From contig NC_071332.1 in NCBI RefSeq assembly GCF_010183535.1, positions 1,798,001 through 1,862,000 on the forward strand: a DNA stretch of 64,000 bases. Direction: 5' to 3'. This DNA comes from Caenorhabditis remanei (taxonomy: Eukaryota; Nematoda; Chromadorea; Rhabditida; Rhabditidae). This document shows, piece after piece, positions 14,105-57,608 of this stretch; position 1 is the first letter of the stretch, and every line of letters starts with the position of its first letter. The translations under genes were made by a program, and so were the position numbers. Under the pieces are notes generated by a model. The model was not told the DNA's origin, did no database searches, and was given only the letters and a program-made list of their open reading frames with translations.

Positions 14105-14509
14105 GTTGGGAAGTGAAAATTTTCTTATCCGGATGTCGGAAGTCGGAAGTTGGAAGTGATTTTTCTTATCCGGAAGTCGGAAGTCGGAAGTCGGAAGTAG
14201 AAAACACCCGGAAGTCGGAAGTCGGTATTAGATTTTTTCGCAAAGATTCAAAAACTCCTAGAAAAAGTTCATAAAACTGGCGAAAATCAGTGAAAAATTA
14301 GTTTTTGGCTGAAGAAAAGCCTATTTTCTGTCCTTTTAGACCATTTTTCCATGTATTTCTGCGAAATTTACTTTTCCGAAATTTCACCGTTATGTAATGA
14401 CAGAAGTCGGAAGTAAAATTCCTTATCCGGAAGTCGGAAGTCGGAAGTCGGAAGTGAAATTTCTTATCCGGAAGTCGGAAGTCGGAAGTCGGAAGTCGGA
14501 ATTCCCAAC
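14105..14509. repeat. CGGAAGT-repeat element, copy 1
   Basis: A ~400-bp unit bounded by GTTGGGAA (14105-14112) and its complement TTCCCAAC (14502-14509). Both flanks are arrays of the 7-mer CGGAAGT, often preceded by CTTATC. The ~180-bp core (TTTTTGGCTGAAGAAAAGCC, TTCTGTCCTTTTAGACC) is shared with the second copy at 57243-57608. The 7-mer is not the nematode telomere repeat. Confidence 0.8.
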
Positions 14510-34623: not shown

Positions 34624-35393
34624 ATTACTTCTAATTTTTCATTATAAATTTTCTAACTTTTTCGTAGCCAGAAAACTGAAAAAAGAACATTCCAAAACGG
34701 GTTGTGCGTTTTCTTCTACTCTCTTTTTTTGTCATTTTTCCCATTTCATGCTTTCAAACTAGTCAGCTTTTTCTCATTTTTTCTATTCGGCACCCCGGTA
34801 ACTTTGTCGGTTAATTGATCTCCTACTAGCCACACCACTTTTGACAAATAAAGCATTGCTACGCCGAAATTTTCAAGAAATATTTACAGAGGGAAGGGGA
34901 ATGGGGGCATCAGAGATATGGTAACTAGATAATGAGAGGTAATGGGATACAGAGAGACGCAGAGAGATCACAAAAACTGAAAAATTGCGGAAATCTAAAG
35001 GAAATATGCGAGGAATGTGACTAAAACACAGCTGATAGGCGATAGGGTTCATAGAGACGCAAAGTTTGTCGAAAATTCTACGTGGATTTGCAGTTTTTCT
35101 GCAAGAATTCTCGCCACACTCTTTCCTGGGTAAAAAATGTGATAAAAGTACAAATAACAAGAGAAAAAAGGCAAAAATATATACATTGAAACAGAAAAAG
35201 GCGCTGAAAATTCACGAAGTTGGCACAAAGACTCTGATCGAAGAGAGTGACTAAAAAATGAGATTTTATTGATTTTTCGACGGAAAAACGTCTATTTTCA
35301 AATCGAGAACTTGGCTCGGGAGGTTAAAAATCGATGAAAATGAGTGCTGAAAGTAGAAAATAAAATAAATGATTAGAATTTAGATAATAGGCC
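34624..35393. other. 3' flank of CAP gene, nothing recognised
   Basis: Apart from the AATAAA at 34847-34852 the stretch shows no gene or repeat I can name. Short open frames on either strand lack splice logic. Confidence 0.4.
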
Positions 35394-35505
35394 TATTCTT
35401 GGCAAGCAAAAAACGCTTTTCACTGCTTCTTTTCAATTCACGGAACCAGAAAATCAGCGAAAACTATTTTTCGCTGGCACATGCCTTTTTCGACACCGCA
35501 GGTCT
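35394..35505 (+). repeat. Left half of an older hairpin repeat split by the 13.4-kb element
   Basis: CTTGGCAAGCAAAAAACG, ATTCACGGAACCAGAAAATC and AGCGAAAACT are found inverted at 48973-49092 on the other side of the large element. The host site was therefore a foldback repeat before the insertion. Confidence 0.75.
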
Positions 35506-35514
35506 CAAAGCGAA
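35506..35514. repeat. Left 9-bp target-site duplication (CAAAGCGAA)
   Basis: CAAAGCGAA directly precedes GGCAAATACTC and occurs again directly after GAGTATTTGCC at 48964-48972, with no mismatch. Confidence 0.92.
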
Positions 35515-36150
35515 GGCAAATACTCATTTGCTTTGGAATCATTTGCTATTTGATCACTTGCTATATTTGTCTCATTTGCTATCACCAGCTCATTTGCTAT
35601 ATCTGTCTCATTTGCTGTTTTCTCATTTGCTATAGTTGTCTCATTTGCTATTTGGTCTTATTTTCAAATACTCATTTGCTATGAGATGGATCACTTGCTA
35701 TGAGTTGGATCATTTGCTATAAAAGGCTCATTAGCTATAAGATAACTACTAAAAAATCCTAAAATCACATCAAGAGCATGATTTCAGTAGAATTTTCATG
35801 AAATTTGTGAACAGCACTTCATAATTGATATTAGGTTGAAAGTTTCAGAATTTCCAAGAATTTCAGAAAAATGCCAGATAAGTTTCGAAGTCGTGATATT
35901 TACCGCTGAATATGAAGAATTTTTTCTTGAAAATTTTTTTATCCACGAAAAGGATGCAAATTAAGAGAAAAAAGATGTGCCCTCCTTTGGCATGATAAAA
36001 CAGAAAACTGGTTGAACGGTAGATGCTCATACGCTATGGGCGGCTGAAGACGAGGTATGAAAATTCTAGTCCTTAGCGATGTGTAGTTCTTGTGGAAAGC
36101 TTCCGCTGGTTCATCAACCAAATTTCTATTCATCAAATTTTGCATTTTCT
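35515..36150 (+). repeat. Left outer terminal inverted repeat with CATTTGCTAT subrepeats
   Basis: The first ~210 bp consist of TCATTTGCTAT-type words at 10-22-bp spacing (variants CACTTGCTAT, CATTTGCTGT, CATTAGCTAT), followed by ~420 bp of non-repetitive sequence to GCATTTTCT. The right outer arm (48328-48963) mirrors it at identical length. Confidence 0.88.
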
Positions 36151-36628
36151 TCCATTGTTTTTTTTTGTTGCAGAGTTCAGAGAAAGATGATTAGAAGTCT
36201 CAGTGTATCTTAGACTAACTTTACAATATCTCAATTCTGGATTAAAAAAAAGATTTTCAATTTTATAGCAAATGAGAAAATAGCAAGTGAGACAATAGCA
36301 AATGAGACGACTCTCGGTAAGCAGTAGTATAACTTTGAGGTTATCAACAAAATGTATATACATATCAGATTGAAGTTTGAAATGGTTCACAATACCCTCA
36401 AAGTAAAGATATCCATGTTGATATTCATCTCTTAATGTTATACTACTGCTTACCGAGAGTCGTCTCATTTGCTATTGTCTCACTTGCTATTTTCTAATTT
36501 GCTATAAAATTGAAAATCTTTTTTTCAATCCAGAATTGAGATATTGTAAAGTTAGTCTAAGATACACTGAGACTTCTAATCATCTTTCTCTGAACTCTGC
36601 AGCAAAAAAAAACAATGGAAGAAAATGC
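36151..36628. repeat. 478-bp hairpin present only in the left arm
   Basis: Arms TCCATTGTTTTTTTTTGTTG / AACAATGGA, AGAGTTCAGAGAAAGATG and CGACTCTCGGTAAGCAGTAG pair with inverted partners at 36435-36620, around a ~100-bp loop. It contains a few ATAGCAAATGAG words, so it is related to the outer TIR. The right arm reads straight across this site (AGAAAATGC next to GAGTATTTGCC at 48325-48336). Confidence 0.82.
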
Positions 36629-38031
36629 GGCAAATACTCATTGACTACGGTACTCATTGCCTACGGTTACTCATTGACTACGCTGTCTCATTGCCTACTC
36701 ATACTCATTGCCTACGGTCAGCTCATTGACTACGCTTGGCTCATTGCCTATATATGCTCATTGCCTACGCTTGACTCTTTGACTACGCTTGGCTCTTTGC
36801 CTACTCTCGCTCATTGCCTACGCTCGGATCATTGACTCCCTTTTTTTTTACTTTATAGCAGAGATTCTGGAACTGGTAATTGGTGAATACCTACACTTTA
36901 TGTATAGGTTTCTGGTTAATTTGAGATTTGTTGTTGGGACATAAGAGCATGTTTTTCCCAAGATTGTGAAGTATAATCTAAAGTAGTCGAAGAAGGGTCC
37001 TGATCATAGAATAAGTTGAACCAGTTGGTAATTTTCGGAGCTCTGATAATGGGTACTTCAGTGGGATTATCATAGGGTAGATCAAGATTAATGTCTCATA
37101 CTGAAAACAAAGAAGCTCTCCCTCTTCTTTTCTTCTTGCAGTAAGAGGGTACCTCTATCCGGCAGCAATTCTCTGGATGACTCATATACTACTACATTTA
37201 TCTACTTTCCTATATTTGATAAATAGCCAATACCTAAATTATTCCTTGGTTAAATTATTTCATATTTGAACCCTATGTTTCGTATGTAAACTTTATAATC
37301 ACCCATTCAGATCGTATAGGTTCGAGTTTACAAAGTTCTGTCCAACTCTAGAACTTTTAATTTAAAAAGAAAAGCCGAATCCGGGGGTACACTCGGGGAC
37401 CTTCTCTTGTCAGAACTCATTGAAGTTGAATTTAACTACCTAATTCAGATTTTTCCAGATTGTGTCCTGATTTTAGACAAATGATCTAGTTAAAGTTGTT
37501 GTGAATAGGAAGCGATTGAACAATCATAGCCAGAAATAATAATAATTCTAGGCTTTACAGCTGTGTATTATCTTATCCAAAAACATTGCCTGAATCACGC
37601 AGCTCCCTAAATGGAAGTTGAGTCCACAATGAATTAACTTATACAGAAACCTACGCCATCAAACATCTGCATTGAGAGTTGACCTTCAGGATATTGGTAT
37701 CAGTTTCTAAATTGCGTACTTCTTATTGTTATTGCAAACTTTCATGAAACGTTCCTTGGGCTGCTGTAGGTATTCACCAATTACCAGTTCCAGAATCTCT
37801 GCTATAAAGTAAAAAAAAAGGGAGTCAATGATCCGAGCGTAGGCAATGAGCGAGAGTAGGCAAAGAGCCAAGCGTAGTCAAAGAGTCAAGCGTAGGCAAT
37901 GAGCATATATAGGCAATGAGCCAAGCGTAGTCAATGAGCTGACCGTAGGCAATGAGTATGAGTAGGCAATGAGACAGCGTAGTCAATGAGTAACCGTAGG
38001 CAATGAGTACCGTAGTCAATGAGTATTTGCC
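36629..38031 (+). repeat. Nested palindrome, left arm
   Basis: Begins GGCAAATACTCATTGACTAC and ends GTAGTCAATGAGTATTTGCC. Each ~210-bp end is an array of CTCATTG(C/A)CTACG words. The ~960-bp spacer (about 36840-37805) is non-repetitive. The terminal eleven bases equal those of the big element, so this is a family member nested in it. Confidence 0.85.
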
Positions 38032-39353
38032 AATTTTTTCTCCTTTACTATTCCGTATTGGATTGCCATTACCTAAAATGTCAATCCTTTTCTTTCCCCT
38101 TCACAATGTATTACTTTACTCGATTCCTCAATCACCCGGTTCTAATTTTTTCTTTCTTTTCTTTGCTCCTTATAGTTGTACATATTCACAGATTTTTTTT
38201 CTTTTCCCTGCCCCTGTCTCCTATTGCCTAGTTCGTTTTTCCTCTTTTATCTCATTCCCATAACACGGTTTTCCCGTTTTTAGCAATTTCACTTGCCTCA
38301 TTCGACCCGGTAATTGTCCTGCTCCTTGAATTGTTCTCTTTTTTTTAACCTGAAACTGCCTCATGAGGGACATACTTCAAATCTTATAAACCCCTCCCCC
38401 CTGTTATTGATTCCCACTGCGGTTGATAAAACAAACAGCAGGTGTCTTAATCCAATGTGACCGTGTCAACTAATTGTCTCTCCTTCCGTCTATTGTCTCG
38501 GCCATCTGCCTTCTTCACATACATGTCATCTGTCGTCATATCTCCTTGGGAAATCTCCAATTTATTAGGTACCGCCCTCTTGTGCCCTACGGTCGGTAGA
38601 GCAGTCTTCAGTCATTCTCCTCTTATTTCGGCCTACAAAAAAGTTCTTCTCCCTGTTTTTTCTATTGCTTACATGTTTCTGCAACATGTTATATCACTTC
38701 CGTTTAATTAGAACATATTTATTTCAGCACCGCTTCCCAAGCACATCGGCAGATGAAAAACTTCAGTGAGACTAATCGATTGATGTCCCGACGAGGAGAA
38801 GCAAAGTGAGAATCGCAAATCCGTAAGTGCCCTATTAGGACATTCTTTATGTTCTTGACTCCCCCCACCATTTTTATCTGTGTCGGTTCCCTCACATTAT
38901 CTTCCTGGCTCAGTCGTTCACTTTTTCTCCCTAATGGATGGTGACTCATCTAGTATCTTTTTTATTGACCACCTTTGAGATATCCCCATAGCCATTATTT
39001 GTGTCATACTTATATTCCCTATTTGCTCACTAAGATAACAAATTAATGTTTCCTTTTTCAGTGGTAAAGCGAAGCGAGAGGGAAAAAACCGTAGCGAAGA
39101 ACGAGGAATGGTCGAGTGCGAGCAACGAGTGACAAGAGGACAATGGATCGAGGAGAATCAGTTAACGATCGTATGAAGAGACGTAAGTTATAAGCCCTAG
39201 AATATAGATATTTTATTGTTCTTCACTTCTCCTACCATTCTTATCTACGGGGAATTTACCATGGCTGAAGGCTGAATGCTTGCCAAAGACTGTTTACCTT
39301 TAGGATTGATTTTCAAAAAATTAGGTTGTTAAGGACGTTCAGTCAAGATAGGA
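38032..39353 (+). repeat. Left inner arm (1322 bp) with exon-like modules
   Basis: Mirrors 45609-46930 almost exactly. It contains spliceosomal-looking signals in plus orientation: acceptor TATTTCAG at 38727; an open module 38728-38805 ending at GTGAGA (alternative GTAAGT at 38823); acceptor TTTTTCAG at 39061; and an open module 39062-39176 with TGA at 39174-39176, followed by GTAAGT at 39183. Joined, the two modules would encode about 63 codons of basic, Gln/Arg-rich sequence. The sequences after the two GTAAGT sites are themselves similar, so the module was duplicated. A functional gene is not shown. Confidence 0.6.
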
Positions 39354-39795
39354 TAGAGTTGGGTCACTATAAATTAGTAGTTGTTGACTTTGTATTAGTG
39401 ATCGGTGAATCATCAAGTAGCTTTGGTAGGGCGTTCTTCGGAACGCGCCAATACTCAATTTGGTTCACTCGAAAACGATACATTTTTAGAGTTGGGTCAC
39501 TATAAGTAGTAGTTGTTGTTGACTTTGTATTAGTGATCGGTGAATCATCAAGTAGCTTTGGTAGGGCGTTCTTCGGAGCGCGCCAATACTCAATTTGGTT
39601 CATTCGAAAACGATACATTTTTAGAGTTGGGTCACTATAAATTAGTAGTTGTTGTTGACTTTGTATTAGTGATCGGTGAATCATCAAGTAGCTTTGGTAG
39701 GGCGTTCTTCGGAGCGCGCCAATACTCAATTTGGTTCACTCGAAAACGATACATTTTTAGAGTTGGGTCACTATAAATTAGTAGTTGTTGTTGAC
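39354..39795 (-). repeat. Short satellite array, left (about 3.3 copies)
   Basis: Units of 133-135 bp in the orientation opposite to the main array, marked by GTTGGGTCACTATAA, GCGTTCTTCGGA(A/G)CGCGCC and CGAAAACGATACATTTTTAG. The array stops abruptly inside a unit at GTTGTTGAC (39795), where the loop begins. Confidence 0.9.
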
Positions 39796-40285
39796 AAACG
39801 CGCTTCACCCAGCCGCGAGCGGCCGCGTAGCGGCCGCCGCGCGTCGTTGTTGCTCAGTCTAGCCCGACGAGTGAGGTTGCCTCTTCCGGTCGTCCGGTAA
39901 CGTGACGAATGTGAAAGTGTCGGCAAAATAGATCCTATCATTTTTCCGGACTATTTTAGCCTATTGCACGCGCTACTGACGCTTGGGATAGTGAATAATC
40001 GCCCCCTTTAGGCCATTTTCAAGCGATCCGCGGTTGTGACCGCTCTTTCGTCTACTTTTGGACCCGCGGCACATCCAGCAGGACGCTTCACTAAATATTA
40101 AATTATCTCTCTCTAAATTATCTAAATCTTTCGTAAATAAATGGGTCATTGTCTTAAAACTTGTGATCTGTTGTCGCATCGCTCATCCTCACACATATAG
40201 CCGTTTATTCGCACATTTTAACCAGTTAGGGAAGATTTTATCCGGAGCGGGTCTGTCTCCGACCGCATTTATGGCCCGCCTCCAC
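39796..40285. other. Single-copy loop between the two satellite arrays
   Basis: 490 bp without a match elsewhere in the window. The first part is GC-rich with two GCGGCCGC words six to eleven bases apart (around 39828-39842). The rest is AT-rich with ATTATCTCTCTCTAAATTATC. It is the only asymmetric, non-repeated part of the centre of the element. No reading frame of note. Confidence 0.7.
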
Positions 40286-43200
40286 AACGCCCTACCAAAG
40301 CTACTTGATGATTCACCGATCACTAATACAAAGTCAACAACAACTACTACTTATAGTAACCCAACTCTAAAAATGTATCGTTTTCGAGTGAACCAAATTG
40401 AGTATTGGCGCGCTCCGAAGAACGCCCTACCAAAGCTACTTGATGATTCACCGATCACTAATACAAAGTCAACAACAACTACTACTTATAGTGACCCAAC
40501 TCTAAAAATGTATCGTTTTCGAGTGAACCAAATTGAGTATTGGCGCGCTCCGAAGAACGCCCTACCAAAGCTACTTGATGATTCACCGATCACTAATACA
40601 AAGTCAACAACAACTACTACTTATAGTGACCCAACTCTAAAAATGTATCGTTTTCGAGTGAACCAAATTGAGTATTGGCGCGCTCCGAAGAACGCCCTAC
40701 CAAAGCTACTTGATGATTCACCGATCACTAATACAAAGTCAACAACTACTAATTTATAGTGACCCAACTCTAAAAATGTATCGTTTTCGAATGAACCAAA
40801 TTGAGTATTGGCGCGTTCCGAAGAACGCCCTACCAAAGCTACTTGATGATTCACCGATCACTAATACAAAGTCAACAACAACTACTACTTATAGTGACCC
40901 AACTCTAAAAATGTATCGTTTTCGAGTGAACCAAATTGAGTATTGGCGCGTTCCGAAGAACGCCCTACCAAAGCTACTTGATGATTCACCGATCACTAAT
41001 ACAAAGTCAACAACTACTAATTTATAGTGACCCAACTCTAAAAATGTATCGTTTTCGAGTGAACCAAATTGAGTATTGGCGCGCTCCGAAGAACGCCCTA
41101 CCAAAGCTACTTGATGATTCACCGATCACTAATACAAAGTCAACAACAACTACTACTTATAGTGACCCAACTCTAAAAATGTATCGTTTTCGAGTGAACC
41201 AAATTGAGTATTGGCGCGTTCCGAAGAACGCCCTACCAAAGCTACTTGATGATTCACCGATCACTAATACAAAGTCAACAACAACTACTACTTATAGTGA
41301 CCCAACTCTAAAAATGTATCGTTTTCGAGTGAACCAAATTGAGTATTGGCGCGCTCCGAAGAACGCCCTACCAAAGCTACTTGATGATTCACCGATCACT
41401 AATACAAAGTCAACAACTACTAATTTATAGTGACCCAACTCTAAAAATGTATCGTTTTCGAGTGAACCAAATTGAGTATTGGCGCGCTCCGAAGAACGCC
41501 CTACCAAAGCTACTTGATGATTCACCGATCACTAATACAAAGTCAACAACAACTACTACTTATAGTGACCCAACTCTAAAAATGTATCGTTTTCGAGTGA
41601 ACCAAATTGAGTATTGGCGCGTTCCGAAGAACGCCCTACCAAAGCTACTTGATGATTCACCGATCACTAATACAAAGTCAACAACTACTAATTTATAGTG
41701 ACCCAACTCTAAAAATGTATCGTTTTCGAGTGAACCAAATTGAGTATTGGCGCGTTCCGAAGAACGCCCTACCAAAGCTACTTGATGATTCACCGATCAC
41801 TAATACAAAGTCAACAACAACTACTACTTATAGTGACCCAACTCTAAAAATGTATCGTTTTCGAGTGAACCAAATTGAGTATTGGCGCGTTCCGAAGAAC
41901 GCCCTACCAAAGCTACTTGATGATTCACCGATCACTAATACAAAGTCAACAACAACTACTACTTATAGTGACCCAACTCTAAAAATGTATCGTTTTCGAG
42001 TGAACCAAATTGAGTATTGGCGCGTTCTGAAGAACGCCCTACCAAAGCTACTTGATGATTCACCGATCACTAATACAAAGTCAACAACAACTACTACTTA
42101 TAGTGACCCAACTCTAAAAATGTATCGTTTTCGAGTGAACCAAATTGAGTATTGGCGCGCTCCGAAGAACGCCCTACCAAAGCTACTTGATGATTCACCG
42201 ATCACTAATACAAAGTCAACAACAACTACTACTTATAGTGACCCAACTCTAAAAATGTATCGTTTTCGAGTGAACCAAATTGAGTATTGGCGCGCTCCGA
42301 AGAACGCCCTACCAAAGCTACTTGATGATTCACCGATCACTAATACAAAGTCAACAACTACTAATTTATAGTGACCCAACTCTAAAAATGTATCGTTTTC
42401 GAGTGAACCAAATTGAGTATTGGCGCGTTCTGAAGAACGCCCTACCAAAGCTACTTGATGATTCACCGATCACTAATACAAAGTCAACAACTACTAATTT
42501 ATAGTGACCCAACTCTAAAAATGTATCGTTTTCGAGTGAACCAAATTGAGTATTGGCGCGTTCCGAAGAACGCCCTACCAAAGCTACTTGATGATTCACC
42601 GATCACTAATACAAAGTCAACAACAACTACTACTTATAGTGACCCAACTCTAAAAATGTATCGTTTTCGAGTGAACCAAATTGAGTATTGGCGCGCTCCG
42701 AAGAACGCCCTACCAAAGCTACTTGATGATTCACCGATCACTAATACAAAGTCAACAACAACTACTACTTATAGTGACCCAACTCTAAAAATGTATCGTT
42801 TTCGAGTGAACCAAATTGAGTATTGGCGCGCTCCGAAGAACGCCCTACCAAAGCTACTTGATGATTCACCGATCACTAATACAAAGTCAACAACAACTAC
42901 TACTTATAGTGACCCAACTCTAAAAATGTATCGTTTTCGAGTGAACCAAATTGAGTATTGGCGCGTTCCGAAGAACGCCCTACCAAAGCTACTTGATGAT
43001 TCACCGATCACTAATACAAAGTCAACAACAACTACTACTTTAAGTGACCCAACTCTAAAAATGTATCGTTTTCGAGTGAACCAAATTGAGTATTGGCGCG
43101 TTCTGAAGAACGCCCTACCAAAGCTACTTGATGATTCACCGATCACTAATACAAAGTCAACAACAACTACTACTTATAGTGACCCAACTCTAAAAATGTA

Positions 43201-45608
43201 TCGTTTTCGAGTGAACCAAATTGAGTATTGGCGCGTTCCGAAGAACGCCCTACCAAAGCTACTTGATGATTCACCGATCACTAATACAAAGTCAACAACT
43301 ACTAATTTATAGTGACCCAACTCTAAAAATGTATCGTTTTCGAGTGAACCAAATTGAGTATTGGCGCGTTCCGAAGAACGCCCTACCAAAGCTACTTGAT
43401 GATTCACCGATCACTAATACAAAGTCAACAACTACTAATTTATAGTGACCCAACTCTAAAAATGTATCGTTTTCGAGTGAACCAAATTGAGTATTGGCGC
43501 GCTCCGAAGAACGCCCTACCAAAGCTACTTGATGATTCACCGATCACTAATACAAAGTCAACAACAACTACTACTTTAAGTGACCCAACTCTAAAAATGT
43601 ATCGTTTTCGAGTGAACCAAATTGAGTATTGGCGCGTTCCGAAGAACGCCCTACCAAAGCTACTTGATGATTCACCGATCACTAATACAAAGTCAACAAC
43701 AACTACTACTTATAGTGACCCAACTCTAAAAATGTATCGTTTTCGAGTGAACCAAATTGAGTATTGGCGCGTTCCGAAGAACGCCCTACCAAAGCTACTT
43801 GATGATTCACCGATCACTAATACAAAGTCAACAACTACTAATTTATAGTGACCCAACTCTAAAAATGTATCGTTTTCGAGTGAACCAAATTGAGTATTGG
43901 CGCGTTCCGAAGAACGCCCTACCAAAGCTACTTGATGATTCACCGATCACTAATACAAAGTCAACAACAACTACTACTTATAGTGACCCAACTCTAAAAA
44001 TGTATCGTTTTCGAGTGAACCAAATTGAGTATTGGCGCGTTCCGAAGAACGCCCTACCAAAGCTACTTGATGATTCACCGATCACTAATACAAAGTCAAC
44101 AACTACTAATTTATAGTGACCCAACTCTAAAAATGTATCGTTTTCGAGTGAACCAAATTGAGTATTGGCGCGTTCCGAAGAACGCCCTACCAAAGCTACT
44201 TGATGATTCACCGATCACTAATACAAAGTCAACAACAACTACTACTTATAGTGACCCAACTCTAAAAATGTATCGTTTTCGAGTGAACCAAATTGAGTAT
44301 TGGCGCGTTCCGAAGAACGCCCTACCAAAGCTACTTGATGATTCACCGATCACTAATACAAAGTCAACAACAACTACTACTTATAGTGACCCAACTCTAA
44401 AAATGTATCGTTTTCGAGTGAACCAAATTGAGTATTGGCGCGTTCCGAAGAACGCCCTACCAAAGCTACTTGATGATTCACCGATCACTAATACAAAGTC
44501 AACAACAACTACTACTTATAGTGACCCAACTCTAAAAATGTATCGTTTTCGAGTGAACCAAATTGAGTATTGGCGCGTTCTGAAGAACGCCCTACCAAAG
44601 CTACTTGATGATTCACCGATCACTAATACAAAGTCAACAACAACTACTACTTATAGTGACCCAACTCTAAAAATGTATCGTTTTCGAGTGAACCAAATTG
44701 AGTATTGGCGCGTTCCGAAGAACGCCCTACCAAAGCTACTTGATGATTCACCGATCACTAATACAAAGTCAACAACAACTACTACTTATAGTGACCCAAC
44801 TCTAAAAATGTATCGTTTTCGAGTGAACCAAATTGAGTATTGGCGCGTTCCGAAGAACGCCCTACCAAAGCTACTTGATGATTCACCGATCACTAATACA
44901 AAGTCAACAACTACTAATTTATAGTGACCCAACTCTAAAAATGTATCGTTTTCGAGTGAACCAAATTGAGTATTGGCGCGTTCCGAAGAACGCCCTACCA
45001 AAGCTACTTGATGATTCACCGATCACTAATACAAAGTCAACAACAACTACTACTTATAGTGACCCAACTCTAAAAATGTATCGTTTTCGAGTGAACCAAA
45101 TTGAGTATTGGCGCGTTCCGAAGAACGCCCTACCAAAGCTACTTGATGATTCACCGATCACTAATACAAAGTCAACAACTACTAATTTATAGTGACCCAA
45201 CTCTAAAAATGTATCGTTTTCGAGTGAACCAAATTGAGTATTGGCGCGTTCCGAAGAACGCCCTACCAAAGCTACTTGATGATTCACCGATCACTAATAC
45301 AAAGTCAACAACAACTACTACTTATAGTGACCCAACTCTAAAAATGTATCGTTTTCGAGTGAACCAAATTGAGTATTGGCGCGCTCCGAAGAACGCCCTA
45401 CCAAAGCTACTTGATGATTCACCGATCACTAATACAAAGTCAACAACAACTACTACTTATAGTGACCCAACTCTAAAAATGTATCGTTTTCGAGTGAACC
45501 AAATTGAGTATTGGCGCGCTCCGAAGAACGCCCTACCAAAGCTACTTGATGATTCACCGATCACTAATACAAAGTCAACAACTACTAATTTATAGTGACC
45601 CAACTCTA
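40286..45608 (+). repeat. Main satellite array, about 39.5 copies of a 135/133-bp unit
   Basis: The unit reads AACGCCCTACCAAAGC, GATTCACCGATCACTAATAC, CTCTAAAAATGTATCG and GAGTATTGGCGCG(C/T)TC. Two length variants exist: 135 bp (AACAACAACTACTACTTATAG) and 133 bp (AACAACTACTAATTTATAG). The 135-bp form is 45 codons without a stop, so strings of it produce long open frames that end at each 133-bp unit. Thirteen units are of the 133-bp type, irregularly spaced. Copies differ at very few sites (C/T in GCGCGYTCCGAAG, CCGAAG/CTGAAG), which implies recent homogenisation. These frames are not called as genes. Confidence 0.93.
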
Positions 45609-46930
45609 TCCTATCTTGACTGAACGTCCTTAACAACCTAATTTTTTGAAAATCAATCCTAAAGGTAAACAGTCTTTGGCAAGCATTCAGCCTTCAGCCA
45701 TGGTAAATTCCCCGTAGATAAGAATGGTAGGAGAAGTGAAGAACAATAAAATATCTATATTCTAGGGCTTATAACTTACGTCTCTTCATACGATCGTTAA
45801 CTGATTCTCCTCGATCCATTGTCCTCTTGTCACTCGTTGCTCGCACTCGACCATTCCTCGTTCTTCGCTACGGTTTTTTCCCTCTCGCTTCGCTTTACCA
45901 CTGAAAAAGGAAACATTAATTTGTTATCTTAGTGAGCAAATAGGGAATATAAGTATGACACAAATAATGGCTATGGGGATATCTCAAAGGTGGTCAATAA
46001 AAAAGATACTAGATGAGTCACCATCCATTAGGGAGAAAAAGTGAACGACTGAGCCAGGAAGATAATGTGAGGGAACCGACACAGATAAAAATGGTGGGGG
46101 GAGTCAAGAACATAAAGAATGTCCTAATAGGGCACTTACGGATTTGCGATTCTCACTTTGCTTCTCCTCGTCGGGACATCAATCGATTAGTCTCACTGAA
46201 GTTTTTCATCTGCCGATGTGCTTGGGAAGCGGTGCTGAAATAAATATGTTCTAATTAAACGGAAGTGATATAACATGTTGCAGAAACATGTAAGCAATAG
46301 AAAAAACAGGGAGAAGAACTTTTTTGTAGGCCGAAATAAGAGGAGAATGACTGAAGACTGCTCTAACGACCGTAGGGCACAAGAGGGCGGGACCTAATAA
46401 ATTGGAGATTTCCCAAGGAGATATGACGACAGATGACATGTATGTGAAGAAGGCAGATGGCCGAGACAATAGACGGAAGGAGAGACAATTAGTTGACACG
46501 GTCACATTGGATTAAGACACCTGCTGTTTGTTTTATCAACCGCAGTGGGAATCAATAACAGGGGGGAGGGGTTTATAAGATTTGAAGTATGTCCCTCATG
46601 AGGCAGTTTCAGGTTAAAAAAAAGAGAACAATTCAAGGAGCAGGACAATTACCGGGTCGAATGAGGCAAGTGAAATTGCTAAAAACGGGAAAACCGTGTT
46701 ATGGGAATGAGATAAAAGAGGAAAAACGAACTAGGCAATAGGAGACAGGGGCAGGGAAAAGAAAAAAAATCTGTGAATATGTACAACTATAAGGAGCAAA
46801 GAAAAGAAAGAAAAAATTAGAACCGGGTGATTGAGGAATCGAGTAAAGTAATACATTGTGAAGGGGAAAGAAAAGGATTGACATTTTAGGTAATGGCAAT
46901 CCAATACGGAATAGTAAAGGAGAAAAAATT
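45609..46930 (-). repeat. Right inner arm (1322 bp), mirror of 38032-39353
   Basis: Inverted copy, same length, with a handful of substitutions (for example ACGACCGTAGGG for CTACCGACCGTAGGG at about 46366). The exon-like modules are preserved on the minus strand at 46234-46157 and 45900-45780, with the same splice-site sequences. Confidence 0.88.
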
Positions 46931-48327
46931 GGCAAATACTCATTGACTACGGTACTCATTGCCTACGGTTACTCATTGACTACGCTGTCTCATTGCCTAC
47001 TCATACTCATTGCCTACGGTCAGCTCATTGACTACGCTTGGCTCATTGCCTATATATGCTCATTGCCTACGCTTGACTCTTTGACTACGCTTGGCTCTTT
47101 GCCTACTCTCGCTCATTGCCTACGCTCGGATCATTGACTCCCTTTTTTTTTACTTTATAGCAGAGATTCTGGAACTGGTAATTGGTGAATACCTACACTT
47201 TATGTATAGGTTTCTGGTTAATTTGAGATTTGTTGTTGGGACATAAGAGCATGTTTTTCCCAAGATTGTGAAGTATAATCTAAAGTAGTCGAAGAAGGGT
47301 CCTGATCATAGAATAAGTTGAACCAGTTGGTAATTTTCGGAACTCTGATAATGGGTACTTCAGTGGGATTATCATAGGGTAGATCAAGATTAATGTCTCA
47401 TACTGAAAACAAAGAAGCTCTCCCTCTTCTTTTCTTCTTGCAGTAAGAGGGTACCTCTATCCGGCAGCAATTCTCTGGATGACTCATATACTACTACATT
47501 TATCTACTTTCCTATATTTGATAAATAGCCAATACCTAAATTATTCCTTGGTTAAATTATTTCATATTTGAACCCTATAGTTTCGTATGTAAACTTTATA
47601 ATCACCCATTCAGATAGGTTCGAGTTAACAAAGTTCTGTCCAACTCTAGAACTTTTAATTTAAAAAGAAAAGCCGAATCCGGGGGTACACTCGGGGACCT
47701 TCTCTTGTCAGAACTCATTGAAGTTGAATTTAACTACCTAATTCAGATTTTTCCAGATTGTGTCCTGATTTTAGACAAATGATCTAGTTAAAGTTGTTGT
47801 GAATAGGAAGCGATTGAACAATCATAGCCAGAAATAATAATAATTCTAGGCTTTACAGCTGTGTATTATCTTATCCAAAAACATTGCCTGAATCACGCAG
47901 CTCCCTAAATGGAAGTTGAGTCCACAATGAATTAACTTATACAGAAACCTACGCCATCAAACATCTGCATTGAGAGTTGACCTTCAGGATATTGGTATCA
48001 GTTTCTAAATTGCGTACTTCTTATTGTTATTGCAAACTTTCATGAAACGTTCCTTGGGCTCCTGTAGGTATTCACCAATTACCAGTTCCAGAATCTCTGC
48101 TATAAAGTAAAAAAAGGGAGTCAATGAGCCGAGCGTAGGCAATGAGCAAGAGTAGGCAAAGAGCCAAGCGTAGTCAAAGAGTCAAGCGTAGGCAATGAGT
48201 ATAAATAGGCAATGAGCCAAGCGTAGTCAATGAGCTGACCGTAGGCAATGAGTATAAGTAGGCAATGAGACAGAGTAGTCAATGAGTAGTCGTAGGCAAT
48301 GAGTACCGTAGTCAATGAGTATTTGCC
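46931..48327 (+). repeat. Nested palindrome, right arm, with spacer in direct orientation
   Basis: Ends are the same CTCATTG(C/A)CTACG arrays as in the left arm. The spacer (about 47140-48115) reads in the SAME direction as the left-arm spacer: both start with CTTTATAGCAGAGATTCTGG on the plus strand. The surrounding arms are inverted, so this segment is flipped relative to the palindrome. Small indels distinguish the two spacers (CCTATAGTTTCG versus CCTATGTTTCG; missing CGTAT near 47612). Confidence 0.87.
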
Positions 48328-48963
48328 AGAAAATGCAAAATTTGATGAATAGAAATTTGGTTGATGAACCAGCGGAAGCTTTCCACAAGAACTACACATC
48401 GCTAGGGACTAGAATTTTCATACCTCGTCTTCAGCCGCCCATAGCGTATGAGCATCTACCGTTCAACCAGTTTTCTGTTTTATCATGCCAAAGGAGGGCA
48501 CATCTTTTTTCTCTTAATTTGCATCCTTTTCGTGGATAAAAAATTTTTCAAGAATAAATTCTTCATATTCAGCGGTAAATATCACGACTTCGAAACTTAT
48601 ATGGCATTTTTCTGAAATTCTTGGAAATTCTGAAACTTTCAACCTAATATCAATTATGAAGTGCTGTTCACAAATTTCATGAAAATTCTACTGAAATCAT
48701 GCTCTTGATGTGATTTTAGGATTTTTTAGTAGTTATCTTATAGCTAATGAGCCTTTTATAGCAAATGATCAAACTCATAGCAAGTGATCCATCTCATAGC
48801 AAATGAGTATTTGAAAATTAGACCAAATAGCAAATGAGACAACTATAGCAAATGAGAAAATAGCAAATGAGACAGATATAGCAAATGAGCTGGTGATAGC
48901 AAATGAGACAAATATAGCAAGTGATCAAATAGCAAATGATTCCAAAGCAAATGAGTATTTGCC
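48328..48963 (-). repeat. Right outer terminal inverted repeat
   Basis: Inverted partner of 35515-36150 with identical length (636 bp). ATAGCAAATGAG-type subrepeats fill the last 220 bp, and it ends GCAAATGAGTATTTGCC. Confidence 0.88.
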
Positions 48964-48972
48964 CAAAGCGAA
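48964..48972. repeat. Right 9-bp target-site duplication (CAAAGCGAA)
   Basis: Exact repeat of 35506-35514 directly outside the element. Confidence 0.92.
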
Positions 48973-49092
48973 CGGTAAAAACACCAGCAAAAAACGTTTA
49001 AAAATCAGCGAAAAGTTGAGTTTTTCGCTGATTTTCTGGTTCCGTGAATCGAAAAAAAACAGTGAAAAACGTTTTTTGCTTGCCAAGTGTAG
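48973..49092 (-). repeat. Right half of the older hairpin repeat at the insertion site
   Basis: GATTTTCTGGTTCCGTGAAT and CGTTTTTTGCTTGCCAAG are the complement of 35399-35461. Part of the arm (TCAGCGAAAA ... TTTTCGCTGA) also folds on itself. Confidence 0.75.
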
Positions 49093-49488
49093 GCCCATAA
49101 GAAAATATAAAAATTCGAAGAAAAACTGTGAAAATTACGACTGGCGGAGACAATCGACACGAAATAGATTCAATTCAGTTAAAAATTTGAAAAAAAAACT
49201 CTGAAAATCACTTGAAAAACGACATTTTTCATCATCAAAAATAAAAATTTTTTCGTTTGGTCCGTAAACACCGCCACGAGCAAATGCAGATATCAAAAAC
49301 AACCGTAGTCTGACAAAATAATTTTTTTAATCGTGGCAATTTTTATTGATTTTCTCGTTATTTTCAGCTGAATTTTTGTGAATTTTTGTTGTTAATCTTG
49401 TGTATTAATAAGATTTTATCCATTTTCAAAATAATGCTTTGATTTAATTCGAGTTTTTCAGGTGCTAACAGCGATTACATCATCGGCA
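49093..49488 (+). promoter_or_regulatory. Upstream region and leader of BATH copy A
   Basis: AT-rich, no gene. The last 36 bases carry TTTTTCAG at 49454-49461 and the leader GTGCTAACAGCGATTACATC before the ATG, a block conserved before every BATH copy in the cluster. Confidence 0.5.
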
Positions 49489-50605
49489 ATGGACATCCCA
49501 CAGAAAGAGTTTGAAATGAAATGTTTTATCGACGATATTGATTGTATGGGAGAAGTTGATGAGCGCATTGTCGAAGAAAATCATTTTAACATTCCATGGA
49601 AGCTAGAAATTCAACGAAGTGAAGATTTTCTCACAATCTATTTGGTTTGTTCAAAGCCAAATCAAAGTGATCACTGGGAAGTGAAAACAGAGATAACAGT
49701 ACAAGTATTATCGATAGACGGAACATCGCAAACAATGAAAAGCTATCATCGATACAAAAATGTGGATAACCCAGAAGTTTATAATCATTTTGGATGGTAC
49801 GATTTTATGACATGGGATATGCTGGAAAATAATTTTGCAATTAACGGAGAGGTGACGATTCAAGCAAATGTTCGAATTCTGGAAATGGTTGGATTTAGAA
49901 AGGAAAATTTGAAAGTGTTCGATGAATCGGTCAAGGAGTTCTCGGATATCGTGCTGGTTGTCAGAGATCGGAAGTTTTATACATCGAAACTGGTAAATTT
50001 TCATTTTTTTTCCCCGAAAATCACTAGTCGCACTCTCTGCGTCTCTCTCATTCACACACTCTCTCACCTTCGAACTCTTATTATTTCAGTTCCTCGGATT
50101 CCAATCATCATATTTCAAATCTCTTCTTCTCGGAGATTTCGCCGAGTCGAGACAATCAGAAGTGGTTCTCAAAAATATCAATCCGGACGATTTTCAGAAT
50201 TTTCTGGAATTAATTCATGGAGAATCGCCGATCGATGGTAAAAATTAATTGAATGCTAATTTAATTTTAAATTTTCAGACAATACAATCGAAGGAGTCCT
50301 TCATTTGGCAGTTCTTTACGATTCGCCTACTGCAATCAAGCGATGCGAAGAATTCTTGGTGAAAGAATCAAAGAAGACGCTGAAAGTCAAGTTGGAACTC
50401 TCTACTCGTTACAATTTGAAAGTTTTGAAGGTTAGAAATACATTTCCTCTGCTTTGAATTCATTTGAAATACTCTTTTTCAGGAAAAATGCATGTCCGAG
50501 ATCAAATCCATCGACGATATTCGATCATTGGTTTCGGGCAATATCGACGAAATGGACTCATCGCTTTCTAAAGAATTATTCAAGAAATGCATTTCTATGT
50601 TTTGA
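49489..50605 (+). CDS. MATH-BTB (BATH) protein, copy A, 308 aa
   Basis: Exons 49489-49992, 50090-50237, 50279-50430 and 50483-50605 (TGA). The MATH domain covers about residues 25-135 (FNIPWKLEIQ, WEVKTEITVQVLS, FGWYDFMTWDMLENNF, VTIQANVRILEMVGF). The BTB domain follows (KEFSDIVLVVRDRKFYTSKL, FQSSYFKSLLLGDFAES, LKNINPDDFQNFLELIHGE), then a helical BACK-like tail (RCEEFLVKESKKTLKVKLEL). Known family role: nematode BATH proteins are substrate adaptors for CUL-3 ubiquitin ligases; the substrate is not known. I chose the ATG at 49489. A TTTTTCAG acceptor ends at 49461, and the following GTGCTAACAGCG leader is conserved in all copies and fits a trans-spliced 5' UTR. First of four tandem copies. 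Confidence 0.93.
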
Positions 50606-50828
50606 TTTTTATTATTAGAATACAAGTTTTACTGTGTTTGTCTACTGATTTTTGTTTTAAAACTGTCGTTTTTCATTCAAATATCTCGACAATTTGATTT
50701 TCGGTGTTTTCAGGTGGTTATTTTTTTTGGAAAAGTTAGTTAGCAATTTTGCTGTTTCATAAAAGACATGTTTCATGAGTCTTTATCAGTTTCCAAGAAG
50801 AGTTTCCAATCTGATTTGATGTTTTCAG

Positions 50829-50861
50829 GTGCTAACAGCTATTACATCATCGGCAATGGAT
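50829..50861 (+). pseudogene. Remnant of a MATH-BTB leader and start codon
   Basis: A TTTTCAG acceptor and the leader GTGCTAACAGCTATTACATC, with an ATG at 50856, copy the 5' end of the neighbouring BATH genes. After about five more bases the match ends and no MATH domain follows. This is a truncated fifth copy between genes A and B. Confidence 0.75.
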
Positions 50862-51006
50862 TTTTCAATTTCAATTGAATTTCTCGTTGTTTTCTGCTGA
50901 ATTTCTGTTGTTAATCTCGTTTATTGATACATTTTTATTCATTTTCAAAGTAATTTTCCGACGTATATTGGGTTTTCAGGTGCTAACAGCGTTTACATCA
51001 TCAGCA

Positions 51007-52114
51007 ATGGACACTTCACAGAAAGAGTTCGAAATGAAATGCTTTATTGACGACATTGGTCGCATCGGAGGATTTGGTGGGCTCACTTACGAAGAAAGTC
51101 ATTTTAACATTCTATGGAAGTTCGAAATTCAACGAATGGCAGATTTTCTCTCTATACATTTGACATGTTTCAAGGAAAACCATGTCGATCATTGGGAAGT
51201 GAAAACAGAGACCTCACTGCAAGTAATATCGAAAAACGGAACTTCGCAAACAATTAAAGAAATTTGTCGATACGAAAATGTGGATATCCCAGAAGTTTAT
51301 AATCGTTTTGGATGGTACGATTTTATGACATGGGCTATGCTGACAGACGATTTTGCAATCCACGGAGACGTTACGATTCAAGCAAATGTTAGAATTCTGG
51401 AAATGGTTGGATTTAAAAAAGAAAATTTGATGAATTTCGATGAATTGGCGAAAGAATTCTCAGATATTGTGCTGGTTGTCGAAGATCGAAAGTTTTATAC
51501 ATCGAAACTGGTAAATTTTCTTTTTTTTTTCCCGAAAATTGCTAGTCGCACTCTCTGCGTCTCTCTCATTCACACACTCTCTCACCTTCGAACTCTTATT
51601 TTTTCAGTTCCTTGCCTTCCAATCGTCGTACTTCAAATCTCTTCTTCTCGGAGATTTTGCAGAATCCAAACAATCGGAAGTTGTTCTCAAAGATATCAAT
51701 CCGGATGATTTTCAGAATTTTCTGGAATTAATTCACGCTGAATCGCCGATCGATGGTAAATATTAATTGAATGCCAATATAATTTTGAATTCTCAGACAA
51801 TACAATCGAAGGAATTCTTCATTTGGCAGTTCTCTACGATTCGCCAATTGCTATCAAGCGATGTGAAGAGTTTTTAGTGAAAAAATCGGAAAAGACGCTG
51901 AAAGTCAAGTTGGAACTCTCTACTCGATACAACTTGAAAGTTCTCAAGGTTAAATCATGATTCACTGTGCTGAAAACCATGAGAAACGCCACTTTTTCAG
52001 GAAAAATGCATTTCCGAGATCAATTCCATCGACGACCTTCGATCCGTGGTGTCCGATGAACTGGATCCGTCGATTTCTAATGCATTACTTCAAAAATTCC
52101 TTCATTTATGTTAG
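51007..52114 (+). CDS. MATH-BTB (BATH) protein, copy B, 305 aa
   Basis: Exons 51007-51510, 51608-51755, 51797-51948 and 52001-52114 (TAG), same structure and phases as copy A. The MATH part is more diverged (GRIGGFGGLTYEESHFNILW) and one conserved position reads FLAFQSSYFKS in place of FLGFQSSYF. The BTB part keeps KEFSDIVLVVEDRKFYTSKL and LKDINPDDFQNFLELIHAE. The last exon differs from copies A and C: it ends SISNALLQKFLHLC, and a duplicate of the A-type ending follows downstream at 52189. Leader and acceptor (TTTTCAG|GTGCTAACAGCG) are conserved upstream. Confidence 0.92.
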
Positions 52115-52188
52115 CTTTCATATGAATTGTACAATTTTTACTGTTTTTTTCACGATTTTTCTGTTAAATAGTTGCTTTCGTTTAAATC

Positions 52189-52275
52189 GGCGAAATGAAC
52201 TCGTCGCTTTCTAAAGAATTATTCAAGAAATGCATTTCTATGTGTTTTTAAATTAGAATACAAGTTTTAATGTTT
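52189..52275 (+). pseudogene. Remnant of a MATH-BTB last exon
   Basis: CGAAATGAACTCGTCGCTTT, AGAATTATTCAAGAAATGCA and the 3' flank TTAGAATACAAGTTTTAATG copy the end of exon 4 and the 3' UTR of copy A. It lies 75 bases past the stop of copy B, probably the scar of an unequal crossover or a deleted copy. Confidence 0.72.
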
Positions 52276-52490
52276 ATCTACTGGTTTTTGTTCTAAAACT
52301 GTCAATTATTCATTCAAATATTTTGATTGTCTTGCGTTTTTTTCAGCAGACTCATTTTTCGGGGTCTTTAGCTTATTTTCCGCAAATTACCGCAGTTCAT
52401 TTTGTTACTTACTAAATTTTACTCAGTTTTCAAGATGATTTATATTACCTTTAGTTTTTTCAGGTGCTAACGGCGTTTACATCATCGGCA

Positions 52491-53610
52491 ATGGACACTT
52501 CACAGAAAGAGTTTGAAATTAAATGTTTTATTGACGATATTGATCGCTTGGAAGAAGGTATCGAGCACACTGTCGAAGAAAATCATTTTAACATTCCATG
52601 GAAGTTAGAAATTCAACAAATAGGCGGTTATCTCTCTATCTATTTGGATTGCTTAAAGCAAGACTCTGTCGATGATTGGGAAGTGAAAACAGAGATAACA
52701 GTACAAGTATTATCGAAAGACGGAGCTTCGCAAACAATTAAAAACTATCATCGATACGCAAATATGTTTAACCTAGATCCAGACGTTTGTTTTAGTTTTG
52801 GATGGTACGAATTTATGACATGGGATATGCTGGAAAATAATTTTGCAGTCAACGGAGACGTTACGATTCAAGCAAATGTTAGAATTCTGGAAATGGTTGG
52901 ATTTAGAAAGGAAAATTTGAAGAATTTCGATGAATTGGCGAAAGAGTTCTCGGATATTGTGCTGGTTGTCAGAGATCGAAAGTTTTATACATCAAAATTG
53001 GTAAATTTTCTTTTTTTTTCCCCCGAAAATCACTAGTCGCACTCTCTGCGTCTCTCTCATTCTCACACTCTCTCACCTTCGAACTCCTGTTTTTTCAGTT
53101 CCTCGGATTCCAATCGTCATACTTCAAATCTCTTCTTCTCGGAGATTTCGCCGAGTCGAGACAATCAGAAGTGGTTCTCAAAAATATCAATCCGGACGAT
53201 TTTCAGAATTTTCTGGAATTAATTCATGGAGAATCGCCGATCGATGGTAAAAATTAATTGAATGCTAATTTAATTTCGAAATTTCAGACATTACAATTGA
53301 AGGAATCCTTCATTTGGCAGTTCTTTACGATTCGCCTACTGCAATCAAGAGATGCGAAGAATTCTTGGTTGAGAAATCGAAAAAGACGCTGAAAGTGAAG
53401 TTGGACCTGTCTACTCGTTATAATTTGAAAGTTTTGAAGGTTATACATTTCCTCTGCTTTGAATTCATTTGAAATACTCTTTTTCAGGAAAAATGCATGT
53501 CCGAGATCAAATCCATCGACGATATTCGATCATTGGTTTCGGGCAATATCGACGAAATGGACTCATCGCTTTCTAAAGAATTATTCAAGAAATGTCTTTC
53601 TCTGTGTTAA
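52491..53610 (+). CDS. MATH-BTB (BATH) protein, copy C, 310 aa
   Basis: Exons 52491-53000, 53099-53246, 53288-53439 and 53488-53610 (TAA). The MATH domain has a two-residue insertion relative to A (NLDPDVCFSFGWYEFMTW). BTB: KEFSDIVLVVRDRKFYTSKL, FQSSYFKSLLLGDFAESRQ. Exon 2, the following intron and exon 4 are almost identical to copy A over long runs, whereas exon 1 is not, which suggests gene conversion. Same conserved trans-splice-like leader before the ATG. Putative CUL-3 adaptor. Confidence 0.92.
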
Positions 53611-53855
53611 TTTTTATTATTAGAATTTTTATTTATTAGAATACAAGTTTTACTGTTTGCCTACTAATTTTAGTTCTAAAACTGTCAATTTTTCATTCAA
53701 ATATCTCTCCGATTTGTTTTTTGGTGTTTTCAGCTATTCTGTTTGGGAAACTTTGTCATCAATTTCGTTAATTGATGAGTGTTTATCAGTTTCCGAAAAT
53801 ATTTTCAAATCTGATTTGATTTTTTCAGGTGCTGGCAGTAATCAAATCATCGGCA

Positions 53856-54961
53856 ATGGACACTCCACAAAAGGAGTTCGAAATAAAACGTTTAATTGAA
53901 GATATTGATTGTATGGAAGAAGGTGATGACCGCAGTGTCGAAGAAGACCATTTTAATATTCCATGGAAGTTAGTAATCATCCGACAAGATGGTTTTCTCT
54001 CAATCAATTTGTTTTGTTTGAAGGAAAATCAATTGAATCTTTTTGAAGTGAAAACTGAGACCACAATACAAGTATTATCGAAAAACGGAACTTCGCAAAC
54101 AATGAAAGAAATTTGTCGTTTTGGAAATGAAGATTGCCTTCCCGTGGGAAGAAGCTGGGGATGGTCCGAATTTATGACATGGGATACGCTGGAAAACGAT
54201 TTTGCAATCCACGGAGACGTTACGATTCAAGCAAAAAGTCGAATTCTGGAAATGGTTGGATTTAAAAAGGAAAATTTGAAGAATTTCGATGAATCGATGA
54301 AGGAGTTCTCGGATATTGTGCTGGTTGTCAGAGATCGAAAGTTTTATACATTGAAATTGGTAAATTTTCTTTTTTTTCCCCGAAAATCACTAATCGCACT
54401 CTCTGCGTCTCTCCCATTCACACACTCTCTCACCTTCGAACTCCTGTTTTTTCAGTTCCTCGGATTCCAATCGTCATATTTCAAATCTCTTCTTCTCGGA
54501 GATTTTGCGGAATCCAAACAATCGGAAGTGGTTCTCAAAGATATCAATCCGGACGATTTTCAAAATTTTCTGGAATTAATTCATGGAGAATCGCCGATCG
54601 ATGGTAAAAATTGATTAATTGCCAATTTAATTTTAAATTTTCAGACAATACAATCGAAGGAATCCTTCATTTGGCAGTTCTTTACGATTCGCCGACTGCT
54701 ATCAAGCGATGTGAAGAATTTTTGGTGGAAAAATCAAAGAAGACTCTGAAAGTCAAGTTGGATTTGTCTACTCGTTATAATTTGAAAGTTTTGAAAGTTA
54801 GAAATACATTTCCTCTGCTTTGAATTCATTTGAAATACTCTTTTTAGGAAAAATGCATGTCCGAGATCACATCCATCGACGATATTCGATCCGTGATGTC
54901 CGATGAAATGGACTTATCGATTTCTAATGAATTACTCAAAAAATGTCTTTCTCTGTGTTAA
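53856..54961 (+). CDS. MATH-BTB (BATH) protein, copy D, 305 aa
   Basis: Exons 53856-54359, 54456-54603, 54645-54796 and 54848-54961 (TAA). MATH: FNIPWKLVIIRQDGFLSINL, EVKTETTIQVLSKNG, WGWSEFMTWDTLENDF. BTB: KEFSDIVLVVRDRKFYTLKL, FQSSYFKSLLLGDFAESKQ, LKDINPDDFQNFLELIHGE. The last acceptor is TTTTTAG in place of TTTTCAG, and the donor of exon 3 follows AAA. The C-terminus (MDLSISNELLKKCLSLC) resembles copy B at SISN and copy C at KCLSLC. Leader reads GTGCTGGCAGTAATCAAATC, slightly diverged. Confidence 0.92.
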
Positions 54962-57242: not shown

Positions 57243-57608
57243 CCAGAGTTGCATGGAAGTGAAATTTTCTTATCCGGAAGTCGGAAGTCGGAAGTGAATT
57301 TCCTTATCCGGAAGTCGGAACTCGGAAGTGAAAAAACGCCCGGAAGTCGGAAGTCGGGAAGTCGGAATTAGATTTTTTCTCAAACTTTCAAAAACTCAAA
57401 GAGAAAAATCATGAAATTCGCGAAAATCAGTGGAAAAGTTAGTTTTTGGCTGAAGAACAGCCTATTTTCTGTCCTTTTAAACCATTTTTCCATGCAGTTT
57501 TGCGAAATGCACTTTTCGAAAATTCCACAGTTATGGAATGACGGAAGTCGGAAGTCGGAATGGAAAAAATGCCCGGAAGTCGGAAGTCGGAATTCCATGT
57601 AACTCTGG
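57243..57608. repeat. CGGAAGT-repeat element, copy 2
   Basis: Bounded by CCAGAGTTGCATGGAA and the near-complement TTCCATGTAACTCTGG. CGGAAGT arrays flank the same core as at 14105-14509 (TTTTTGGCTGAAGAACAGCC, TTCTGTCCTTTTAAACC). The rest of the interval 56907-57890 shows no gene. Confidence 0.8.

Follow-up and report, generated by a model that had tools for sequence, protein, structure and literature searches.

The 64,000-bp stretch of Caenorhabditis remanei DNA analysed here (the window; C5:1798001-1862000 in the PX506 assembly) holds, between positions 35506 and 48972, a large set of inverted repeats around a tandem satellite, 1.83-1.85 Mb from the low end of a contig that we take as chromosome V (C6 is taken as X; C-numbers denote contigs and L-numbers loci elsewhere in the same assembly). 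The whole analysis uses the sequence of this single assembly, with genome searches covering 130,466,896 bases in 186 contigs. From the outside inwards, the locus consists of a foldback element whose ends we call type A, an inner unit whose ends we call type B, a repeat adjoining the satellite (C), the satellite itself in both orientations, and a piece of a long terminal repeat (LTR). The geometry given in a preliminary description of this DNA, comprising the duplication, the ends, the arms, and the satellite, is confirmed. There is next to no doubt, however, that these parts represent two nested insertions rather than one element.

The outer boundaries are marked by a perfect 9-bp target-site duplication, CAAAGCGAA, present on both sides as first described (left copy at 35506-35514, right copy at 48964-48972). 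Both outer ends read GGCAAATACTCATTTGC, with an identical terminal run of 102 bp, and the equal outer arms (35515-36150 and 48328-48963, 636 bp each) agree at 629 of 636 positions, each carrying 9-10 copies of the subrepeat TCA(C/T)TTGCTAT. A second target-site duplication, AGAAAATGC, lies further in (left copy at 36620-36628, right copy at 48328-48336). Both 9-bp duplications are direct repeats placed exactly at repeat ends, and two random 9-mers from the window agreed in 133 of 2,000,000 draws. The type A piece to the left of the inner insertion (35515-36628, plus strand) contains the entire left arm and the start of the right arm; joined to the rest of the right arm (48337-48963, plus strand), it gives an element of 1,741 bp that self-pairs over its full length (96.3%) and shows 86-87% identity to three intact type A relatives (L031-L033). 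In all three relatives the word AGAAAATGC is single and uninterrupted, representing the empty site of the inner insertion. The outer element is an ordinary non-autonomous 1.7-kb foldback element, the remainder of the locus is inserted into it, and its arms end at 636 bp because this insertion cut one of them.

The outer element is itself surrounded by an older, imperfect inverted repeat (35390-35476 and 49006-49095, 89% over 90 columns) and seems, therefore, to have inserted into a short palindrome. A general preference for hairpin targets was considered and rejected, as 9 of 10 other copies tested have no surrounding inverted repeat and the tenth has one of 23 bp.

The inner unit (36629-48327, 11,699 bp) ends in GGCAAATACTCATTGACTACGG, a type unlike the outer ends, and is bounded by two complete type B foldback elements. 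B1 (36629-38031, plus strand) is 1,403 bp long, with mutually identical terminal inverted repeats (TIRs; 267 of 267 positions), and B2 (46931-48327, plus strand) is 1,397 bp long and has a divergent right TIR. The 267-bp TIRs contain nine TCATTG(A/C)CTA units. Because B1 and B2 stand in direct orientation, the locus is not a simple palindrome. Between them lie, in order, C, reversed satellite, the LTR piece, forward satellite, and inverted C, so that two complete elements with cargo between them share a single duplication around the whole, the anatomy of a composite transposon. The inner duplication, the second type of end, the direct B elements, and the cause of the arm limit had all escaped the preliminary description.

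The two B elements are closer to each other than to any relative compared: in their interiors, 3 sites out of 864 differ, and comparisons with four copies elsewhere (L036, L037, L039, and L041) give 23-33 differences in about 860 sites. Of the four B TIRs present in the window, three (both of B1 and the left one of B2) are identical; the two TIRs within each of those four copies differ from one another by 2-8 columns. Moreover, the insertion points of B1 and B2 in C are mirror images of one another. Near-identical interiors at a mirrored site, together with the matching TIRs, suggest that B was duplicated together with C and that most of its ends were homogenised, and direct B interiors in inverted surroundings imply that one interior must have flipped. 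The inner unit is thus very probably a composite of sister B elements.

The left C arm (38032-39353, plus strand) has its outer side cut by B1 and the right C arm (45609-46930, minus strand) by B2; both are 1322 bp long, the equal length noted earlier, and agree at 1320 of 1322 positions. The inner inverted repeat as first detected (37765-39640 and 45322-47197) and in its gapped form (37765-39790 and 45173-47197, 99.65%) exceeds these arms because one TIR per B element and the margin of the satellite fall within it. The satellite, of period 135, runs in reverse for 3.3 units on the left (39354-39795, minus strand) and forward for 39.6 units of 135 (133) bp over 5,323 bp (40286-45608, plus strand), in agreement with the central tandem satellite of the preliminary description. 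Excision of whole units from the forward array gave 39, of which 27 have 135 bp and 12 have 133 bp. A coding repeat was considered for the satellite, since 135 bp corresponds to 45 codons and stretches are open, and rejected, as the 133-bp units break the reading frame. An Rfam search of 35000-49500 returned nothing at gathering scores.

At the point of inversion lies a truncated LTR (39796-40285) that matches LTR-like repeats at 39 other places at 78-94%, including three close direct pairs on C4 spaced 9.3-9.5 kb apart, and covers positions 205-689 of a 689-bp stretch (L018) at 86.7%. Its intact end, ...CCTCCACA, adjoins the forward satellite, and its broken end adjoins the reversed satellite. 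Beyond ...CCTCCACA the flanks of the LTR copies diverge, marking the end of the LTR, and in several copies this side is accompanied by a TGGTGC word, which we take to resemble a primer-binding site. On the opposite side, copies remain alike past the window piece. The simplest reading is that the LTR had inserted into the satellite and that an inverted joining then occurred within it.

Relatives of C elsewhere in the genome show that B sits in C by insertion. A search with C reported 86 matches, many of them partial (39 scored of 264 candidates), with partial ones also in mid-chromosome. At the two loci shown (L003 and L006), C extends past the B junction on its upstream side, accompanied by other sequence and lacking B, and the target word is present once at each, as AATTTTTTC and AATTTTTTA; the upstream part of C is missing at the window locus. 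The word spanning the C-satellite junction occurs at four places, two in the window and one each at C2:628205 and C5:26379, and satellite adjoins C in L003, L004, L005, and L006, with further satellite units at C1:544.6-552.6 kb. Among the matches listed, all satellite places outside the window are no more than 1.3 Mb from the end of an assembled chromosome. As 100 of 216 matches are listed for one genome search with the satellite and 100 of 141 for the other, further arrays may exist elsewhere. A word specific to the 135-bp unit gave 42 matches at 0-1 mismatch, all in the window; the remaining 99 carry 3 mismatches, and the 58 of these that are listed all lie on C1.

The position of C near chromosome ends led to its consideration as part of a pairing-centre satellite, which we rejected. 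Matches near ends lie at the left of I, the left of II, the right of III, the right of IV, the left of V, and the low coordinates of C6, with those on IV and C6 partial and weaker C6 matches at 20.1 and 20.8 Mb. For C. elegans, the pairing ends are given as I right, II left, III left, IV left, V right, and X left (PMC9071541), an agreement in 2 of 6 if orientation is shared. The assembled starts of C5 (L057, C5:1-1500) and C2 (L058, C2:1-600) consist of different tandem repeats, not of telomere repeat.

Both types of end recur across the genome. Exact outer-type ends (17-mer) number 13, two of them in the window, and exact inner-type ends (15-mer) number 43, four of them in the window. The duplication test covered close inverted pairs outside the window, with unpaired ends (4 of 13 outer-type and 21 of 43 inner-type) left out. 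Three type A copies (L031, L032, and L033, of 2,073, 1,716, and 1,724 bp) all carry perfect 9-bp duplications, as does a 4,832-bp copy with one changed base at one end (L034), bringing type A to 4 of 4; seven type B pairs (L035-L041) do so in 7 of 7 cases, and the clean paired copies of both types in 11 of 11. The preliminary description had proposed looking for other copies and for empty sites, and the genome supplies both: copies with 9-bp duplications, and the empty site of the inner insertion in the intact paralogues. With long, subrepeat-rich TIRs and dispersed copies bearing duplications at constant ends, these elements belong to the foldback class.

Two further type B pairs, on unplaced contigs (C9 and C157), failed the duplication test. 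These contigs are 99.7% identical and carry a large palindrome (L042 and L043 in C9:4000-16000; L044 and L045 in C157:4000-16000), with B-type ends and 3.85-kb arms of 99.8% identity, both of which contain C-terminal frames resembling transposase. They were considered as additional composites and rejected, as their flanks are inverted rather than direct and their arms continue past the B-type ends. They are inverted duplications and not transposed units.

As stated earlier, the window copy carries no transposase: of 25 transposase matches in the genome, none lies inside the element. The 4,832-bp type A relative contains transposase exons whose predicted splicing gives 333 residues, and would encode a DDE-like transposase. 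Relatives occur at L059, L062-L063, and L067-L068, and fragments adjoin B-type ends at C4:13.647-13.654 Mb and on C58, C115, and C168. The longest stop-to-stop frame of the family seen, at 401 residues, is that of L059 (C4:5964344-5965267); a 72% match to the type A arm lies just downstream (C4:5966557-5966763), and the exact ends were not found in that locus. The blocks DTT(F/Y), DGE, CDxH, and NExFN recur among the aligned relatives, and they may correspond to a D-D-E triad with a C-x2-H between the second D and the E.

The target-site duplications of about 9 bp fit the Mutator (MULE) superfamily. The MULE domain (PF10551), however, gave no Pfam match in the transposase pieces, the spliced 333-residue reading, or five relatives, although the same model matches six other places in the genome. 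Names in UniRef include one relative called 'MULE transposase domain-containing' and another of SWIM type, but these are names only. A profile comparison, in which MULE was represented by just two sequences, was negative; NCBIfam gave nothing near its cut-off for the transposase, solved structures gave no match, and the fold model (mean predicted local distance difference test score 42.9) is too poor for use. Hence, the elements are filed as foldback-type and probably, not provenly, belong to the Mutator superfamily: of the original Mutator-like/foldback assignment, the foldback part stands, backed by such ends in copies elsewhere, subrepeat-rich TIRs, 9-bp duplications, and a DDE-like transposase in a 4.8-kb relative, and a match to the MULE domain is wanting.

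The arrangement could have arisen as follows. A non-autonomous type A element would have inserted in chromosome V, duplicating CAAAGCGAA. Elsewhere, a 1.4-kb type B element would have inserted at AATTTTTTC in a C-satellite repeat, and an inverted duplication there, with its junction inside the satellite-borne LTR, would have produced B-C-satellite joined to satellite-C-B. A later flip of one B interior, for which recombination of its two TIRs with each other is the simplest route, would account for the direct orientation. Transposase may then have paired the outermost left end of one B with the outermost right end of the other, so that the 11.7-kb block was inserted whole into the type A element, duplicating AGAAAATGC. 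We consider such macrotransposition the probable route of the inner block; it predicts one duplication round two complete elements and their cargo. The two nested insertions with their duplications, the inner empty site, the composite anatomy, the continuation of C without B elsewhere, and the sibling relation of B1 and B2 are observed, and the order of events, the flip, and the transfer of the block in a single step are inferred from them.

Several observations weigh against this history. The B-C junction occurs genome-wide only at the two places in the window, with no donor locus, and the lost reciprocal junction has a sole genome match, with 1 mismatch, at C3:2.24 Mb, with no C listed there. 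The absence of a donor fits cut-and-paste movement, but also loss of the source or its absence from the assembly. The private 135-bp satellite variant is found nowhere else in the genome at 0-2 mismatches, so that no source array was identified. A plain inverted duplication predicts inverted B interiors, and the direct B1 and B2 require the extra flip. Ten columns separate the right TIR of B2 from the other three TIRs, as gap repair would also predict.

This last point bears on the main rival, expansion in place, by which a single B inserted in A, duplicating AGAAAATGC, and a later break was repaired from a distant B-C-satellite-C-B locus, the block never having transposed. MULE-type elements are known for gap repair, the same AGAAAATGC duplication would result, and the divergent right TIR of B2 resembles a leftover of the resident B. 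The left TIR of B1 should then also be of resident type, yet it matches the inner TIRs at 267 of 267 positions, a discrepancy that conversion could hide, and the same donor locus, absent from the assembly, is required. We regard this alternative as unlikely, if deserving of attention. An assembly artefact, in which joined chimeric or palindromic reads produced the inverted structure, is quite improbable. The evidence is from one assembly with no reads, inverted arms of near-perfect identity are known to arise as artefacts, and C9 and C157 carry another palindrome whose arms remain alike past the B-type ends; a chimera, however, would mirror everything, yet B1 and B2 are direct and the two satellite blocks are unequal in length (5.3 kb and 0.44 kb). 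Both duplications, moreover, are in direct orientation and lie exactly at the ends, a test that C9 and C157 fail. Finally, the originally proposed single 13.4-kb palindromic Mutator/foldback element moving as such, suggested by the perfect outer duplication and equal arms, is hardly credible and is rejected in the face of an inner duplication with ends of another type and of outer-type relatives of 1.7-2.1 kb that are uninterrupted at the inner site (3 of 3).

Outside the element, the window contains two adjacent MATH-domain frames (49462-51708; Pfam E values 1.5e-21 and 4.2e-17) within a stretch of repeated similarity (49337-53862), two short tandem arrays sharing a CGGAAGT word about 43 kb apart (14120-14501 and 57255-57332), and a 233-bp tandem duplication in two copies (1876-2336).

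The locus carries a warning that a palindrome with a perfect duplication around it need not be a single element. Caenorhabditis is a genus known for RNA interference, and as a long natural inverted repeat the locus offers a defined structure against which small-RNA data can be read. For the movement of satellites to distant places, Helitrons are named as the route for some Caenorhabditis satellites (PMC4595182), and macrotransposition would suggest a second. Here, the nesting of two target-site duplications, together with an empty site, allows the steps of such a route to be ordered. We lean, with some reserve, towards the view that foldback transposons can act as satellite vehicles: a C-satellite region, of a kind found near chromosome ends, would have undergone inverted duplication via an LTR, become flanked by sister B copies, and been carried into another foldback element as a block of 11.7 kb, whose satellite is now a private 135-bp variant. 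The setting is suitable, as, among DNA transposons, it is Mutator that is reported at about double abundance in outcrossing Caenorhabditis (PMC10015627).

A literature search, in which larger result sets were viewed in part and few subscription journals were included, returned no account of this locus and none of a satellite-carrying foldback composite. The joint use of the ends of two elements to move the DNA between them recalls macrotransposons and alternative transposition of maize Ac/Ds, which are hAT rather than foldback elements and were studied in maize stocks. In Drosophila, large transposing elements flanked by foldbacks likewise involve two foldbacks mobilising the DNA between them, although their cargo consists of genes around white. 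A further nematode case is Tm1, a Mutator/Foldback family of root-knot nematodes, which as described in the accessible part of its report (PMC3169594) shares composite subrepeat-rich TIRs, 9-bp duplications, and a membership of mostly non-autonomous elements with one transposase-coding member. Its transposase, however, matches Pfam MULE and FLYWCH, neither of which the C. remanei relatives match, and Tm1 elements are a few kilobases at most, with no nested satellite composite described in that part of the report (PMC3169594). Galileo of Drosophila buzzatii, in the available section of its account (PMC2775673), similarly has long-TIR foldback-like copies that recombine, with flipped middle segments and chimeric TIRs, but it is of the P superfamily with 7-bp duplications and produced a chromosome inversion with exchanged duplications, with no transposed block. 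Tetris of Drosophila virilis is also a foldback element tied to satellite DNA, with 8-9 bp duplications in complete copies; in the portion of its description at hand, its own TIR repeats became satellite, whereas the C. remanei satellite is foreign cargo carried between elements (PMC4079207).

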